Part shown: one piece after another, positions 17,217 to 60,515 of the stretch
Numbering within the stretch: the stretch's first letter is position 1
Layout: every line of letters begins with the position of its first letter
Made by a program: the position numbers and the translations under genes
Notes under the pieces: model-generated
What the model saw: the letters and a program-made list of their open reading frames with translations, nothing else
What the model was told of the DNA's origin: nothing
The model's database searches: none
Source: Halapricum salinum
GTDB taxonomy: Archaea > Halobacteriota > Halobacteria > Halobacteriales > Haloarculaceae
DNA length: 64,000 nucleotides
Reading direction: 5' to 3'
NCBI RefSeq assembly: GCF_004799665.1
Contig: NZ_CP031310.1
Location: 2,038,887-2,102,886, forward strand

Positions 17217-19022
17217 CTACGACAACTTCTCTGGTAGGACGAACCGGCCGTCTTCCCGGGGAAAGTCGAGGACGTCGACGATAGCGCCGGTGTTCAGCGG
17301 ACCGTAGACGTGGGCGTAGCTGCGGCCGTCGGGCTGTTCCTCGTACCTGATCTCGCTGTCGACTCGCTCGGGATCGATCACGAGCAGCCGCGGCTCCTCG
17401 TCGTCAGCGTGGTTGTACTGGGCGACGGCGAGAATCTGCTCGGGCGTCGCACAGTGGACGACCCCCTCTGCGTCGAGACTCGGATGGGTGTACGTCTCGC
17501 TGTCCTCGAACTCCGCCCAGCGCGCTGCCTCGCAGACGTGGACGAGCCGGTCTGCACGACCGTCCCGGACGGCAGCTTCCGCACGCTCGACGACGTCCCT
17601 GACTGGCAGATCGAGGTCCCGAGCGACGTCGAGTGCGTCGTCGAACTCCGCGCTCACGTCGAAGATCGACCCCTCAGAATCGGCCCCCAGTTTCACGTCG
17701 ACAGCGCGGCGCTGTCCGTCTTCGAGTAGCGTCGCGGTGACGATCGAGCGCTCGGCGACCCAGCGATGACCTGCGCCGTGTTCGCGGACGCCCAGCGTCC
17801 CGGTCTCTGCGGCGAGTTTTCGGGCCACCCTGTCGGCGTCCTCGGGGCGGACGATCACCTTCAGGAGGTGGCCCGGGCGGGACTTCTTCATCGTCGCCGG
17901 CAGGATCGAGACGTCCCGTGCACCGGCCTCGAGGAGCGTCTCCTGCAGGCCGCCGAGCGTCTCGGGCGTCGCGTCGTCGAGATTCGTCTCCAGTACGGTG
18001 ATCGGCTCCTTTCTGAGGAGACCGTCGGTCTCGCCGACGAGTGCGCGCAGAACGTTCGGAATACCGTCGAGATCGATCGTCCCTGCGCCGTAGCCCGAGG
18101 TCTCGACGCGGATCGACGGCAGCGAGTCGACGCCCTCGGCGACGTGGGCGAGGATCGCCGCGCCCGTGGGGGTCAGCAGTTCGCGGTCGACGGGACCGCC
18201 CCGGATCGACCAGTCGGCGCGTTCGACGATCTCGGTCACTGCGGGGGCGGGGACGGGGTAGGTCCCGTGGCTCATCTCGACCGTGCCGCCTCCGGTCGAG
18301 ACTGGCGTCGTGACCACGCGCTCGACGTCGAGGTCATCGAGGAGGAGCGCCGCGCCGACCACGTCGGCGATGGCGTCGTCGGCCCCGACCTCGTGGAAGT
18401 GCGTCGATTCGAGATCCGTGCCGTGGACCGCGGCCTCGGCCTCGCCCAGGATCTCGAAGATGGCCAGCGCGTCGCTCTCGACGTCGGCTGGCAGCCCCAT
18501 CCCTTCGACGATCTCGACGACCTCGGGGTACGTCCGGTGCGGGCCGTGGCCCTCGGCGTGGTGTGTGTGCTGATGATCGTGGTCCTCTGCGTGGCTATGA
18601 TCGTGTGAGTGGTCGGCGTGGTGGTGGTCCTCTGCGTGGCTATGATCGTGTGAGTGGTCGGCGTGGTGGTGGTCCTCTGTGTGGCTATGATCGTGTGAGT
18701 GGTCGGCGTGGTGGTGGTCCTCTGTGTGGCTATGATCGTGTGAGTGGTCGGCGTGGTGGTGATCCTCTGCGTGGCTATGATCGTGTGAGTGGTCGGCGTG
18801 GTCGTGATCCTCTGCGTGGCTATGGTCGTCGTCCCCGTCGAGAAGCACGTCGACCGCCGTCGCGGAGATTCCCGTTTTCGTCACCTGGAGGATATCGTAG
18901 GAGACGTCGAGTGCGTCCTCGACGGGCGAGAGGACGTCTGGATCGGCCCCGGCCGCCAGCAGCGCGCCGAGCAGCATGTCGCCGCTGGCACCCGTTCGGC
19001 CGTCGAACGCGAGCGTGTGCAT
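17217..19022 (-). CDS. larC: nickel-pincer cofactor biosynthesis protein LarC with histidine-rich insert
   Basis: LarC inserts nickel into pyridinium dithiocarboxylate to form the pincer cofactor of lactate racemase-type enzymes. The 601-residue product begins MHTLAFDGRTGASGDMLLGALLAAG, the canonical LarC start. The core resumes at YPEVVEIVEGMGLPADV and includes STHFHEVGADDAIADVVG and ELLTPTGAAIL, then LETNLDDATPETLGG. Between them, residues about 62-160 form a His/Asp/Glu-rich insert made of 15-residue repeats, a likely nickel store. The C-terminal region also contains a pyrophosphohydrolase-unrelated tail ending DILDFPREDGRF-like. Frames upstream of 19022 lack LarC similarity. A nearby larA is not seen. 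Confidence 0.93.
   Translation of the reverse strand: MHTLAFDGRTGASGDMLLGALLAAGADPDVLSPVEDALDVSYDILQVTKTGISATAVDVLLDGDDDHSHAEDHDHADHSHDHSHAEDHHHADHSHDHSHTEDHHHADHSHDHSHTEDHHHADHSHDHSHAEDHHHADHSHDHSHAEDHDHQHTHHAEGHGPHRTYPEVVEIVEGMGLPADVESDALAIFEILGEAEAAVHGTDLESTHFHEVGADDAIADVVGAALLLDDLDVERVVTTPVSTGGGTVEMSHGTYPVPAPAVTEIVERADWSIRGGPVDRELLTPTGAAILAHVAEGVDSLPSIRVETSGYGAGTIDLDGIPNVLRALVGETDGLLRKEPITVLETNLDDATPETLGGLQETLLEAGARDVSILPATMKKSRPGHLLKVIVRPEDADRVARKLAAETGTLGVREHGAGHRWVAERSIVTATLLEDGQRRAVDVKLGADSEGSIFDVSAEFDDALDVARDLDLPVRDVVERAEAAVRDGRADRLVHVCEAARWAEFEDSETYTHPSLDAEGVVHCATPEQILAVAQYNHADDEEPRLLVIDPERVDSEIRYEEQPDGRSYAHVYGPLNTGAIVDVLDFPREDGRFVLPEKLS
18582..18824. repeat. 45-bp tandem repeat encoding His-rich units inside larC
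   Basis: Copies start at 18582, 18627, 18672, 18717, 18762 and 18807 (last partial), exactly 45 bp apart. Each encodes a 15-residue unit of the form HSHxEDHxHADHSHD. The DNA is nearly identical between copies, differing at a few positions only (Ala/Thr and His/Asp changes), which points to recent expansion. The array stays in frame. Confidence 0.97.
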
Positions 19023-19083
19023 ATCTGCGAGACGGTCGGGCAGCGTGAAAACTGCCCCGGTCCACAGGAATCGACGATCCCGC

Positions 19084-19548
19084 CTAGCGGCCGAATCGTC
19101 GGTATCCCGCGACGCCGAGTACCATCGCGCCGAGTGCCAGTGTCGCGAGTCGCGGCAGTTGCTGGGTGGCGAAATCGACCTCGAAGGAGAGGTGTTTGAC
19201 CTGCAGCAGATAGAACTGGCCATCGCGTTCGACGTTGTAGATCGCGATGCCGTCTGGTCCCGGTGTCAGGCGCTCGGGTGCCTCGCTGACGGACCGATTG
19301 AGATCGTCGGGGCTGGCTTGCAGGGCGGCCTCGAAGACCGCGCGTTCGGCGCCGCTGAAGTTCGCGTACGCCAGGGTCTGCTGGTCGGGGTTGTTCATCC
19401 AGTCGCCCTCGACGTAGAACTCGACGCGGTCGTCGGGGACCTCGGGCGCAGCGAGCACCGGGAGCGCGACTAGGCCGAGGCCGACGACGACGAGCGACAG
19501 CGTCAGGAGGCGAGAGCTGTCCACGGGCGACGCTGTGTCCGCCTGCAC
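19084..19548 (-). CDS. uncharacterised membrane-anchored protein upstream of larC
   Basis: The product is about 154 residues from a GTG at 19548 (TTG at 19551 also possible). It has an N-terminal transmembrane helix (LLTLSLVVVGLGLVALPVLA, about 13-32), a 75-residue extracytoplasmic region with DDRVEFYVEGDWMNNPDQQ, and a C-terminal helix (LATLALGAMVLGVAGY) ending in a short basic tail. No enzyme motif is seen. It is 61 bp upstream of larC on the same strand, so the two may be cotranscribed, but a role in nickel handling is unproven. Confidence 0.75.
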   Translation of the reverse strand: MQADTASPVDSSRLLTLSLVVVGLGLVALPVLAAPEVPDDRVEFYVEGDWMNNPDQQTLAYANFSGAERAVFEAALQASPDDLNRSVSEAPERLTPGPDGIAIYNVERDGQFYLLQVKHLSFEVDFATQQLPRLATLALGAMVLGVAGYRRFGR

Positions 19549-20977: not shown

Positions 20978-21061
20978 GGCCGTCGCGTACAGCGGCCACG
21001 AGTATAAGTCTCGGCCGTCCCGTGCGTAGCTTACTCGTACCTCCGGGCTCCAAGGGTGGAC

Positions 21062-22357
21062 ATGCTCGAACTGCACGTCGCCTTCCTGCTGGTGGTGGTC
21101 GGGACTGAGGCCTTCTTCAGCGGGCTCTCGATCCTGAACGTCCGCTACGGCGCCCAGACCGTGGCCGAGCGTTCGGAGTGGGTACGCGACCGTCTCGGAA
21201 TCGAAGACACCGACAGGCTGCTGGACTATCAACGAGCGGGGACCGGACTCTCGCTGTTGCAGTCGTGGCTGAGCATCGCGTTCGTCCTCCTCGTACTGTA
21301 TTCGGGACTGTTCGGCGACGCCGTCGCCTGGATCGAGTCACTCTCGCTCCCGCCGCTCGTTCAGGGAACCGTCTTCTTCGTCGGCCTCGTCGCCGCCGTT
21401 CGGATCGCTGGAATCCCCTTCTCGCTGTACGAGACGTTCGTCGTCGAGGAGCAGTTCGACTTCAATCAGCAGTCCCCGAAACTCTGGCTCCGGGATTTCG
21501 TCGTCGGGACTGTCGTCGCGCTCGTGCTGACGGCACTCGTCGCGGGGGGCGTTCTCCTGGCGTTCGAAATCCTGCCCAATCTCTGGTGGGTCGCTGCCTG
21601 GGGGCTCTTTATCGCCTTCTCGCTCGCTATGTTGGTACTCTACCCGCGGGTGATCGCACCGCTGTTCTACGACTTCGAACCGATCGACTCCGGGGAGTTG
21701 CGGGAGTCCGTCGACGACGTCTTCGAGCGCGCGGGCTTCTCGTGTGAGCAGGTCTACGAGATGGACGCCTCCAGCCGCTCGGGCCACTCCAACGCCTACT
21801 TCATCGGGTTCGGCCGGACCAAGCGCGTCGTGCTGTTCGACACGCTGATCGAGCAGATGGACCGCCCGCAGATCGAGAGCGTCCTCGCCCACGAACTGGC
21901 CCACTGGAAGAAATCACACATCTGGAAGCAGATGGCCAGTTCGTTCCTGCGGATCGGGATCGTCCTCGCCATCTTCTCGGTGCTGCTCGAACAGGCCTGG
22001 CTCTACGACCTGTTCGGCGTGCCCGCTACTCCCTACGCAGGGCTCGTGCTGGGCGCGCTGTGGGTCATGCCACTGTTGCGGTTCACGGCGCCGCTGGAGA
22101 ACAAACTCTCGCTGAAACACGAGCGCGAGGCCGACAGCTTCGCCGTCGAGGTGATGGGTGGCGGTGGCCCGATGGCGAACGCGCTGGCGAACCTGACCAG
22201 CGAGAATCTCGCAAACCCCTTCCCGCATCCACTCTACGCGACCTTCCACTACACGCATCCGCCGATCCCCGAGCGGATTCGTTACGTCGAAGGCGAGAGC
22301 GACGCGAGCGACAGCGACGTGGACCGCAAGGACGGGGGTTCGGGCCAGCCAGCCTGA
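21062..22357 (+). CDS. Ste24-type membrane zinc protease (M48)
   Basis: The 431-residue protein has about seven transmembrane helices arranged as in CAAX protease Ste24/HtpX. The zinc motif HELAH is at residues 277-281 (HELAHWKKSH) and the third ligand lies in EREADSFAVEVM (Glu356). N-terminal helices and the loop LYETFVVEEQFDFNQQSPKLWLRD match the Ste24 family rather than the shorter HtpX (about 290 residues). In archaea it probably degrades misfolded membrane proteins. An in-frame GTG at 21056 is an alternative start. The acidic C-terminal tail (DASDSDVDRKDGG) is a haloarchaeal extension. Confidence 0.92.
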   Translation: MLELHVAFLLVVVGTEAFFSGLSILNVRYGAQTVAERSEWVRDRLGIEDTDRLLDYQRAGTGLSLLQSWLSIAFVLLVLYSGLFGDAVAWIESLSLPPLVQGTVFFVGLVAAVRIAGIPFSLYETFVVEEQFDFNQQSPKLWLRDFVVGTVVALVLTALVAGGVLLAFEILPNLWWVAAWGLFIAFSLAMLVLYPRVIAPLFYDFEPIDSGELRESVDDVFERAGFSCEQVYEMDASSRSGHSNAYFIGFGRTKRVVLFDTLIEQMDRPQIESVLAHELAHWKKSHIWKQMASSFLRIGIVLAIFSVLLEQAWLYDLFGVPATPYAGLVLGALWVMPLLRFTAPLENKLSLKHEREADSFAVEVMGGGGPMANALANLTSENLANPFPHPLYATFHYTHPPIPERIRYVEGESDASDSDVDRKDGGSGQPA

Positions 22358-22450: not shown

Positions 22451-25138
22451 ATGGACGTCCCTCCCCGCGCGATCAAAGCGGCCAAAGTGACTGCTGTCGC
22501 GCTCGTCGCGCTCGTCGTGTTACTCGGTATTCTCGTCGCCACGGGCGTGCTCGCTGCACCCACCGTCGAAACAATCGACAACGGCTGGGGCGAGGTCACC
22601 GACGACGCGACCCAGATCGAGACACAGGTCGTCGTCGACAACCCCAATCCGATCCCCGTCCCCGGGATCATCGACGTCTCCTACACCGCGTCGCTGAACG
22701 ACGTCACGCTCACGCAGAACACCCGCTCCGGGATCGGCCTCTCGCCGGGGACCAACACGCTCAGACTCTCCTCGGCGATCCCCAACGACAGGATCGCCGA
22801 CTGGTGGGTCACCCACGTCAACAACGGCGAAAGCTCGACGCTCAGTATCGACCCGAAAGTGAGCGGCCCCGGCTTCAGCCAGTCGCTCGCGGGGCGGACG
22901 ACGCAGATCGAGACCGACCTTCTGTCGTCGTTCGGCGGCCAGGGCGCAGAGACGGTGCGCGTCGACGGCGAGCCGTTCGTCGTCCTCAGCGACCAGCAGG
23001 CCAGCTGGGGCGAGGCCACGGCCGAGACGACGCCGCTAACGTTCACGACGACGGTCGAAAACGTACACGACTATCCGGTCACCTTGGACGGTGTCGAGTA
23101 CGTCGTCAGCATGAACGACGTCACGCTGGGGTCGGGGCAGACGACCGACGGCGTCGAGATCGAGCCGGGCGAGTCGGGAGCGCTGACCGTCGACGCGTCG
23201 CTGAACACCTCGGCCTTCGCCGACTGGTGGCCGACGCACGTCCTGAACAACGAGACGAGTCAAATGGAGGTTCAGCTGTACGGGATCGTCGAGCGCGACG
23301 GCGAGCGAACGCGTGTGCCGCTGACGCTCTACCAGCAGCGTCTGGAGTTCGAGACTGACCTGCTCGGCGACGGCGCGACTAGCGTCGAATCGCTGCCGAG
23401 CGAGCGCGAGGACGTGACCGTGCCGACCGTGGCCGAGACTGAACGACGCTGGGGCGAGATCAGCGCCAGCACCGCAGAAGTCGTCACGACGGTCGAATTC
23501 GCCGACACGACCGATCTCTCGAAACTCCGTGCGGTGACCTCGCTCGTCGTCGATCGCTCGACGTCGATCAACGGCGTGACTGTCCTCGACAGCACGACGA
23601 CGCGCGGCTTGCCCCCGGCGGGCGAGGCGCTAACGATGACCAGTGAGATGGACAACGACGCCTTCGCAGACTGGTGGGTCCGCCACGTCAACGACGGCGA
23701 AACGTCGGCGGTCGTCACCGACGCCAGCGCCACCGTCGACGTGGGAATCACGAAGTTCGACCGCCCCCTCAGCGACGAGCAGACGCAGTTCGAGACCGAC
23801 ATCCTGGGCGCCGTCGGGAGCGACGGGTCCCAGACGGTAACCGTCGCCAACGAGACGATCGCCGAACTCGGTTCTCAGGAGGCCGCCTGGGGCACTGCGG
23901 ACGCCGAGACGACGCCCTTCATCTTCTCGACGGCCGTCGAGAACCGCCACGACAGCCCCCTGGAGTTTGCGGACTTCCAGTATACCGTCGAGATGAACGG
24001 TGTCACGGTCGCCAACGGCACAGACGGCGAGGCGCTGACGGTCCAGCCGGACGAGACGCGCGACCTCGACGTCCGCGTCCCCCTGTCGACCCCGAAGCTG
24101 TCGGACTGGTGGGTGACCCACCTCCGGAACGACGAGCGCTCGAACGTCTCCGTCCGGCTGTACGGGATCGTCGAGCGCGACGGCCAGCGCGAGCGGGTCC
24201 CAATCGCGCTGGTCGAGGATCGCTTCCGACTCACGACGGACCTCCTCGGCGACGGCTCCTCGTCTGTCGACGCACTGCCGACGGATCGGCCCACGATCGA
24301 GCGTCCGAGCGTCCAGAACACGACCCGCCGCTGGGGCGATGTGACCGAGCAGACGACCGACGTCGAGACCGACGTGACGGTGTTCAACCCCAATGGCCCG
24401 GTGGTCAACGACTTCATCCGGTTCCGGATGGCCAGCGAGACGTCGATCAACGGCGTCGTCTTCGGCAGCGGCGAGCGGACCGAGGATCGACTGGCGGAGG
24501 GCACGAACCTCGTGAACTACACGAGCGTGCTCGACAACGAGCAGGTCCCGGCGTGGTGGGCGCGCCACCTCAACGACGGCGAGTCCTCGACGGTGCGGAC
24601 GACGACCACGACGACCGTCGACGCCGGGTTCACGACGCTGTCGGTGCCGACCGAGAATCGAACCTCGACGTTCGAGACGGACTTGCTGGCTGGTCTGAAC
24701 AGCACGCAGGAACAGCCCATCGAGCAGGACGGTGAGACGTTCCTCGTCGCCGAATCGACGTCTGCGGCGTGGGAGGAAGCGACCCCCCAGACCGCGCCGC
24801 TCTCGGCGGAGAGCACCCTCCGGAACGAACGCCAGTTCCCGATCACGGTCGAGCGGATCGACTACACCGTCTCGATCAACGAGATCACGCTGGCCGACGG
24901 CAGCCATCAGGAGGGGACGACGATCCTGCCGGGCGCGAGCGAGACGGTCGAACTGCCGATGGAACTTGACAACTCGAAGATGGATAAGTGGTGGGTCACC
25001 CACGTCCCCGAGGAGACCTCACTGCTGGACGTCGACGCGACGGCGACGATCAACGCCGCCGGCCAGACCCGGACCGTGCCTCTGGAGATGTTCTCGAAGA
25101 ACCAGACCGTCGAGACGGATATCCTCGCCGACGAATGA
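22451..25138 (+). CDS. membrane-anchored protein with six WHy/LEA-2-like repeats
   Basis: The 895-residue protein has one N-terminal transmembrane helix (VTAVALVALVVLLGILVATGVLA, about 14-36) and then only extracytoplasmic repeats. Each repeat begins with a tryptophan motif (WGEVTDD-like) at about residues 44, 184, 332, 477, 627 and 772, and ends with a DWWVTHVNNGESS-like segment. Repeats 1, 3, 5 resemble one another, as do 2, 4, 6, so the gene is three tandem pairs of about 290 residues. The core pattern (NPNPIPVP..I.VSY...LNDVTL) resembles the water-stress WHy/LEA-2 fold. Archaeal LEA-2 proteins are usually one or two domains. It stands alone; a stress or surface role is an inference. Confidence 0.85.
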   Translation: MDVPPRAIKAAKVTAVALVALVVLLGILVATGVLAAPTVETIDNGWGEVTDDATQIETQVVVDNPNPIPVPGIIDVSYTASLNDVTLTQNTRSGIGLSPGTNTLRLSSAIPNDRIADWWVTHVNNGESSTLSIDPKVSGPGFSQSLAGRTTQIETDLLSSFGGQGAETVRVDGEPFVVLSDQQASWGEATAETTPLTFTTTVENVHDYPVTLDGVEYVVSMNDVTLGSGQTTDGVEIEPGESGALTVDASLNTSAFADWWPTHVLNNETSQMEVQLYGIVERDGERTRVPLTLYQQRLEFETDLLGDGATSVESLPSEREDVTVPTVAETERRWGEISASTAEVVTTVEFADTTDLSKLRAVTSLVVDRSTSINGVTVLDSTTTRGLPPAGEALTMTSEMDNDAFADWWVRHVNDGETSAVVTDASATVDVGITKFDRPLSDEQTQFETDILGAVGSDGSQTVTVANETIAELGSQEAAWGTADAETTPFIFSTAVENRHDSPLEFADFQYTVEMNGVTVANGTDGEALTVQPDETRDLDVRVPLSTPKLSDWWVTHLRNDERSNVSVRLYGIVERDGQRERVPIALVEDRFRLTTDLLGDGSSSVDALPTDRPTIERPSVQNTTRRWGDVTEQTTDVETDVTVFNPNGPVVNDFIRFRMASETSINGVVFGSGERTEDRLAEGTNLVNYTSVLDNEQVPAWWARHLNDGESSTVRTTTTTTVDAGFTTLSVPTENRTSTFETDLLAGLNSTQEQPIEQDGETFLVAESTSAAWEEATPQTAPLSAESTLRNERQFPITVERIDYTVSINEITLADGSHQEGTTILPGASETVELPMELDNSKMDKWWVTHVPEETSLLDVDATATINAAGQTRTVPLEMFSKNQTVETDILADE

Positions 25139-25190: not shown

Positions 25191-25490
25191 ATGAGTTCGA
25201 AAAAGCGGGTCCAGTTCCGCGCGCCGGATCGGTTGATCGATCGGACGGACGCGCTCGCGACAGTTCTCGGCGAGGACCGAACCGACGTCCTCGTCACCGC
25301 ACTCCGGGAGTATCTGCAGGACGCGACGCACGACGACACGCTCGTCCAGGAGATCGCGGCCGCCTACTACGACGACGAGATTACTGACGAGCAGCTCCAG
25401 GCGTTGCTCGGGGCCGAACGGGCGGCGAATTTTCGGGTTCTGAAACAGCAACTCGACGAGGCATACGTCGAGGACGTCTCGGAGGCCTGA
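25191..25490 (+). CDS. ribbon-helix-helix antitoxin-like protein
   Basis: The 99-residue protein starts SSKKRVQFRAPDRLIDRTDALATVLGEDRTDVL, a ribbon-helix-helix DNA-binding pattern: one short strand, then two helices. The C-terminal half (EQLQALLGAERAANFRVLKQQL) is helical and acidic, suitable for wrapping a toxin. The PIN gene starts at the next base after its stop. A CTAAAGA box 26 bp upstream of the ATG fits a leaderless mRNA. I infer an antitoxin that also represses its own promoter. Confidence 0.82.
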   Translation: MSSKKRVQFRAPDRLIDRTDALATVLGEDRTDVLVTALREYLQDATHDDTLVQEIAAAYYDDEITDEQLQALLGAERAANFRVLKQQLDEAYVEDVSEA

Positions 25491-25997
25491 ATGGGCACAG
25501 TCGTCGCCGACACGTCGGGACTCGTGAGTCTCGGGATCGCCGCCGGAGACGACCCAGACCCCCTGGCAGACTGTCTCGACGAATACAACGTCGTCGTCCC
25601 GTCGATCGTCTTCGACGAACTACAGGAGATCGCCGACTTCGAGGACGCCCACGGCCGGGCCGCAGCGGCGGTCGTCGACAGCGACGCAACTGAACGCAGA
25701 CACGCGGACCTCGACGAGGAGTTTCCGCTCGACGACGGGGAGAACGCAGCCGTGACGCTCGCAAACGAAATCGACGCCGACCTCTTTCTCTGTGACGAAT
25801 TCAACAGCCTCGGCTTGATCCATGCATCGCTGTCGAACACCCGTCTCGTCACGACGCCGACGTTGCTCTCGGTGCTCGTCCGGCGTGGACGACTCTCGAC
25901 CGCAGAGGCCGCATCGGCGCTCGAAACGATCAGCCGTGCTCGAAGTTGGGAGTCGAACAGCTACGTCACGCGGGCCCGAGCGCTGTTCGACGACTAG
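25491..25997 (+). CDS. PIN-domain ribonuclease toxin-like protein
   Basis: The 168-residue protein has the PIN acidic residues: Asp7 in VVADTSGL, Glu43 in IVFDELQEI, the LDDGENAAVTLA segment (Asp81-Glu84), and Asp102 in LFLCDEFN. PIN toxins of VapC type cleave RNA with two metals. The length exceeds the usual 130-140 because of a C-terminal helical tail. It directly follows the RHH gene with no gap, so the pair looks like a toxin-antitoxin unit. Its stop TAG overlaps that of the convergent aldo/keto reductase in a shared CTAG. Confidence 0.85.
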   Translation: MGTVVADTSGLVSLGIAAGDDPDPLADCLDEYNVVVPSIVFDELQEIADFEDAHGRAAAAVVDSDATERRHADLDEEFPLDDGENAAVTLANEIDADLFLCDEFNSLGLIHASLSNTRLVTTPTLLSVLVRRGRLSTAEAASALETISRARSWESNSYVTRARALFDD

Positions 25998-58114: not shown

Positions 58115-58150
58115 ATCTCGACTGTGCGGGGCCAGCGTCAAAGGGGTTTC

Positions 58151-58256
58151 ACTCGTCGGGCGGTTGTGATACCGCCCGACACAACCACTCCTCGGGCGGT
58201 TGTGATACCGCCCGAGACACTCACTCCTCGGGCGGTTGTGATACCGCCCGAGACAC

Positions 58257-58258
<2 letters not shown>
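58151..58258. repeat. three 36-bp direct repeats, each with a hairpin, after the amylosucrase gene
   Basis: Units begin at 58151, 58187 and 58223 (36 bp apart); the second and third are identical and the first differs at a few bases. Each contains perfect 8-bp arms CGGGCGGT and ACCGCCCG around TGTGAT. A fourth start, ACTCCTCGG, at 58259 is the very end of the amylosucrase gene, whose stop codon and last codons resemble the repeat edge. Confidence 0.97.

Positions 58259-60515
<2,257 letters not shown>

Follow-up and report, generated by a model that had tools for sequence, protein, structure and literature searches.

The gene considered here lies in a 64,000-nucleotide stretch of the Halapricum salinum genome (contig NZ_CP031310.1, positions 2,038,887 to 2,102,886; hereafter, the window). 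A plus-strand open reading frame (ORF) at 22451..25138 of the window, stop codon included, encodes a protein of 895 amino acids (aa) with a predicted N-terminal membrane anchor followed by six LEA_2 domains in the order A-B-A-B-A-B. What LEA_2 proteins do at the molecular level is still debated: most accounts deal with them as small proteins of the stress response, and a possible part in lipid transfer is discussed for those of eukaryotes. The family itself is already known; the new details are its longest form, strictly pairwise growth and a step in which a B-A pair was copied. Compared with the 59%-identical orthologue of Halapricum hydrolyticum, the ORF retains identities of 72/76/56% at codon positions 1/2/3, and is therefore a real gene under selection. 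The protein starts with a short charged stretch, continues through a hydrophobic helix and a few further residues, and is then filled up to the C-terminus by six repeats, each roughly 140 residues long.

These repeats, all on the plus strand, are R1 (type A, A1; 22559..22972, residues 37-174, with W46, WWVTH at 118-122 and an NPN motif), R2 (type B, B1; 22976..23392, residues 176-314, W186, WWPTH at 259-263), R3 (type A, an A2-like extra copy; 23420..23854, residues 324-468, W334, WWVRH at 408-412), R4 (type B, a B1-like extra copy; 23861..24274, residues 471-608, W480, WWVTH at 553-557), R5 (type A, A2; 24305..24736, residues 619-762, W628, WWARH at 702-706), and R6 (type B, B2; 24743..25129, residues 765-893, W774, WWVTH at 847-851), with which the protein ends. 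The features common to them are a tryptophan-glycine start at the tryptophan given for each, a WWxxH motif and an (E/T)TD-x-L end; R6 differs at its start, with glutamate in place of glycine after W774. All 15 pairwise alignments between the repeats score better than every one of 200 shuffles (Z scores of 6 to 64), and the best mutual matches are found among R1, R3 and R5 on the one hand and among R2, R4 and R6 on the other. The same division extends to relatives: when 174 domains of related ORFs are placed in one tree, a single branch (support 0.999) perfectly separates 87 odd-position from 87 even-position domains, and the split recurs with support of 100/100 in a careful tree of 64 domains. 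NPN in the first half of the domain is a signature of LEA_2/WHy proteins; the pattern N[PS]N occurs in 78% of haloarchaeal odd-position domains versus 10% of even-position ones. Across the phylum, between 84 and 100% of the domains at odd and at even positions have WW followed by H, Y or F, a feature that all four of the single-domain members tested lack. An assembly artefact or recent tandem copying was rejected as the source of the array, given that R1-R6 are only 59-68% identical to one another at the DNA level and that an independent species also carries six domains.

At the family level, Pfam LEA_2 (PF03168) matches the whole protein with 124.5 bits, the curated cut-off being 25.4. Four stretches are significant individually, R2, R4 and R6 scoring above the cut-off as single stretches and R1 slightly below it; our repeat profile recognises all six domains, and NCBIfam assigns no family to the protein. 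The full-length AlphaFold model, built on 9 sequences, has a predicted local distance difference test (pLDDT) score of 76.5 and a predicted template modelling (pTM) score of 0.43; it contains six beta domains of uncertain mutual placement, and in every one of them a single helix coincides with WWxxH. An A-B pair modelled on 21 sequences reaches a pLDDT of 78.4 and a pTM of 0.72, so that the A-B joint may be ordered. Of the solved structures, AF0446 of Archaeoglobus fulgidus (3but) is the nearest: the B half superimposes on it with a Z score of 14.2 and a root mean square deviation of 1.9 A over 124 residues, and a sequence profile match to 3but has an E-value of 3.6e-27. AF0446 shares the fold, the W-G start and the WWVTH motif, but its solved construct is a single 136-residue domain, compared to six in tandem here. 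It is mainly the A domain that resembles the plant LEA14-type protein At1g01470 (1xo8; Z 10.0 over 119 residues), a short protein of 151 residues that has the LEA_2 fold, is 15% identical and lacks a tandem array. Full-length Foldseek matches, all to unspecific chains of several Ig, Fn3 or macroglobulin domains (template modelling scores near 0.1), were set aside as meaning only a string of beta-sandwiches, and matches of the A domain to GH2 enzymes (Z 10-12), which cover a sandwich part of about 110 residues, were read as fold resemblance only.

An earlier note on this DNA, made from the letters alone, had called the product a LEA_2/WHy-like protein of two alternating repeat types. The Pfam score, the models and the 3but and 1xo8 matches confirm the family, the best-match pattern and the 87 versus 87 split confirm the two types, and the repeated beta-sandwich for which a structure prediction had been proposed as a check appears in the model as six beta domains. 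The note had placed the repeat-starting tryptophans at residues 44, 184, 332, 477, 627 and 772; the six repeats stand, whereas these positions are off by 1-3 residues.

Of 295 genomes of the phylum, 122 contain LEA_2 matches; the frames concerned mostly measure about 150-310 aa, in agreement with the expectation that archaeal members are usually short. Domain counts among ORFs of related loci, in which a few records are present twice owing to the overlap of two collections, were two (33 ORFs), four (29), six (3 records, 2 distinct proteins) and one (2); no ORF with three or five domains was detected among the related-locus ORFs scanned with the repeat profile. A full-length six-domain match was obtained only in Halapricum salinum and Halapricum hydrolyticum (G003; record JAOPKD010000021) across 146 genomes of the family searched. 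Four-domain forms are common in this same family, the Haloarculaceae, so that the six-domain gene is not isolated: the protein is the longest form found of a protein family that changes by two domains at a time. The non-haloarchaeal loci examined for context all encode two-domain proteins (16 of 16), with WWxxH in both domains of each of the 10 checked, although the tree provides no clear one-to-one assignment of their first and second domains to the haloarchaeal A and B types. Halapricum salinum itself encodes a distant two-domain paralogue of 356 aa, the domains of which fall on the A and B sides of the tree. In eight two-domain relatives (loci L070, L076, L077, L080, L082, L083, L095 and L097), the open frame runs on for 56-505 residues past the second domain, either as a genuine additional region or merely as GC-rich open frame. 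The four- and six-domain proteins, unlike these, mostly stop right behind the last domain.

The order in which the copies arose can be read from the four-domain orthologues of Halorientalis, Halosimplex and other members of the Halapricum group. These A1-B1-A2-B2 proteins have the same anchor and 42-63% identity over their best segments but lack the R3-R4 pair: they align to R1, R2, R5 and R6, with a clean gap across R3-R4. In comparisons with the four domains found in other species of the genus, identity is 55-68% for R1, R2, R5 and R6 but only 35-42% for R3 and R4, of which R4 is closest to B1. The tree places R3 inside the A2 clade and R4 inside the B1 clade, each with support of 100/99. 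The grouping of R4 with B2 was rejected by the approximately unbiased (AU) test (p-AU 0.018, for domain groups named after a first tree had been viewed); the test was applied to this grouping, and the joining of R3 to A2 rests on the branch support. An A-B pair is accordingly rejected as the unit of the last duplication, and the simplest history is an A1-B1-A2-B2 protein in which the inner B1-A2 pair was copied in tandem. The ancestor would have had a single A-B pair, and some of the haloarchaea would have gained the A1-B1-A2-B2 form. A further copying of its inner pair, dating from the Halapricum lineage or before it, would have yielded A1-B1-A2'-B1'-A2-B2; an origin of the six-domain form within the genus is not rejected (p 0.26 and 0.39). 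Copying in the B-A phase would preserve the register, with A first and B last, so that length varies between two constant ends, A1 next to the membrane and B2 at the terminus. Of the three duplications of a two-domain ancestor proposed in the earlier note, only the ancestor is upheld. Two-domain relatives are widespread, in keeping with such an ancestor; three duplications are not needed, because two expansions (2 to 4 to 6) suffice, the last being that of the inner pair, out of phase with A-B.

Pair number also varies in place. The two-domain version in genome G002 consists of A1 and B2 and occupies the same locus, and that in G061 combines an A1-type with a B2-type domain and shares its upstream gene with the four-domain genes of Halorientalis. 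It follows that the number of pairs varies at fixed loci with A1 and B2 retained, a change that may be gain or loss. At locus L069 (G010), a two-domain match contains an in-frame TAG in the alignment, and its second domain groups with B1 rather than B2; this may be a truncated four-domain gene.

The long stem branches of R3 and R4 (0.64 and 0.40 changes per column) raise the question of whether the extra pair is a duplicate in rapid decay that contributes nothing except length. The likeness of the two domains to their sources is much lower than that between orthologous domains, and close relatives do without them. The pair is nevertheless kept, with WWxxH intact, in both six-domain species, although 41% of the residues differ between the two proteins, and identities to the second six-domain species, 63/69/57/54/54/59% for R1-R6, are similar for R3-R4 and R5-R6. 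We consider decay a very unlikely account of this pair.

The predicted signal anchor, a hydrophobic helix at 22490..22555 on the plus strand (residues ~14-35), has a mean hydropathy of 3.04 over 18 residues and is modelled by AlphaFold as a helix at 14-30. In nearly all members of the family, either such a transmembrane anchor or a lipobox directly precedes domain 1. The haloarchaeal members have a hydrophobic helix at the position held by the lipobox in non-haloarchaeal relatives, of which 11 of 16 carry a lipobox-like motif (e.g. LIGCS; a pattern match) right before the first domain, so that most of these two-domain proteins look like lipoproteins. Domain 1 begins only a few residues past the N-terminal helix, and in transmembrane-anchored and lipobox members alike it would lie within a few residues of the membrane. 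The type of anchor has changed while the geometry is constant, which argues for an outer-face protein abutting the membrane. The sequence thus supports an extracytoplasmic, membrane-anchored topology for the six-domain protein, in line with the surface location suggested by the earlier note. Sequons of the N-glycosylation type number 10, against about 8 expected, which is no clear enrichment.

An M48 (CAAX-protease-like) membrane peptidase gene (21056..22357, plus strand) lies directly upstream in 5 of 5 Halapricum-group genomes compared, and at this locus the neighbouring gene encodes 2, 4 or 6 domains across the five; AKR and GGR genes are further neighbours shared within the genus, and in G002 both lie downstream. 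No M48 gene was found adjacent to a LEA_2 gene outside the genus, and we regard it as a positional marker, not a demonstrated partner. No shared function emerged from the gene clusters examined around LEA_2 genes outside the genus. Directly downstream of the six-domain gene, at 25191-25997, are a ribbon-helix-helix-like gene and a PIN-domain gene that resemble a toxin-antitoxin pair; the distant two-domain LEA_2 paralogue of Halapricum salinum is also followed immediately by such a pair, 45% and 42% identical to these (L084, 2815-3729). This pair was rejected as a partner, since relatives of the ribbon-helix-helix gene in other genomes are not beside LEA_2 genes; its adjacency to two LEA_2 genes may be a coincidence or reflect a shared insertion hotspot.

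Elsewhere in the window, a 45-bp tandem repeat (18579-18829; 5.6 copies, 97% match) encodes a long histidine/aspartate-rich stretch inside the minus-strand ORF 17217-19223, which, reading by eye, we take to be LarC-like. The stretch is probably an insert that binds metal, and it seems to have expanded recently. A 36-bp tandem repeat at 58149-58267 (3.3 copies), with an inverted repeat (CGGGCGG...CCGCCCG) in each copy, sits at the end of the minus-strand amylase-like ORF 58257-60515 and is possibly an array of stacked terminator-like hairpins. Rfam and tRNA searches of the whole window gave no matches.

We lean modestly towards the view that the protein is an extracytoplasmic, N-terminally anchored chain of three A-B modules that would serve as a surface stalk or scaffold with its length set by the number of modules. 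It would project from the outside of the cell membrane, and the WWxxH site of each domain would either contact a partner (a protein, a glycan or a lipid head group) or hold the domain interface. What computation has established is that there are repeats of two types, that they follow an even-number rule and in which order they were copied. Several points weigh against a stalk or scaffold: the M48, AKR and GGR genes adjoin the gene only within the genus, so that gene context gives no function; with a full-length pTM of 0.43, an extended rod is not demonstrated by the model; WWxxH may be conserved for structural reasons alone; and the helix may belong to a signal peptide that is cleaved off, not to an anchor that stays.

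The main rival is lipid handling, by analogy with eukaryotic relatives: a groove in each LEA_2 domain would bind lipid, and the chain, set close against the membrane, would extract lipids from it and pass them outward or shield them, as was predicted for TMEM106B, Vac7 and Tag1. TMEM106B, Vac7 and Tag1 likewise have a LEA_2 domain on the far, lumenal side of a membrane (PMC12297828, PMC10409496), as predicted for the topology here, and a long lipid-binding groove has been proposed for LEA_2 domains (the prediction of Levine 2022, as cited in PMC12297828). The closeness of domain 1 to the membrane, whichever the anchor, and the two conserved tryptophans of each domain would suit such a role. 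The eukaryotic proteins, lysosomal or vacuolar, are very distant, their likeness being that of LEA_2 family membership. The prediction made for them was not backed by a crystal structure (PMC10409496), and no lipid-related genes are conserved beside the family in the neighbourhoods examined. We therefore consider lipid handling possible, if on balance improbable.

The acidity of the six-domain protein (isoelectric point 4.1), ordinary among haloarchaeal proteins, says little for another alternative, that of a WHy protein protecting against desiccation or salt by chaperone-like shielding of other proteins, as reported for DrwH of Deinococcus radiodurans. Its hypersaline habitat would be compatible, and DrwH belongs to the same Pfam WHy/LEA_2 family and has a predicted signal peptide; oxidative and salinity stress both induce drwH, and sensitivity increases when the gene is lost (PMC5570939). 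DrwH is, however, the hydrophobic product of a 495-bp gene and has no tryptophan, in contrast to the acidic six-domain protein with 18 tryptophans, which looks membrane-anchored and folded. Furthermore, the tandem two-domain WWxxH form is spread over non-haloarchaeal members of the phylum, and no association with stress was found; the desiccation-protective role advanced in the earlier note is not upheld, and we regard it as unlikely.

We found no report of such arrays in the literature on haloarchaeal LEA_2 or LEA14-like proteins, of which our coverage is partial. A further and more speculative reading, which we consider quite unlikely, is that haloarchaeal LEA_2 arrays form a continuous lipid-handling or partner-binding track leading outward from the membrane, the reach of which is set by inserting or deleting B1-A2 cassettes at a single locus. 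If true, this would be a length-tunable surface conduit, of which we know of no described archaeal counterpart. Whichever of these functions applies, a single locus offers natural two-, four- and six-domain versions in close relatives, together with a WWxxH motif in each domain and the even-number rule; the function of the LEA_2 domain is therefore directly testable, by swapping lengths and by mutating one motif.
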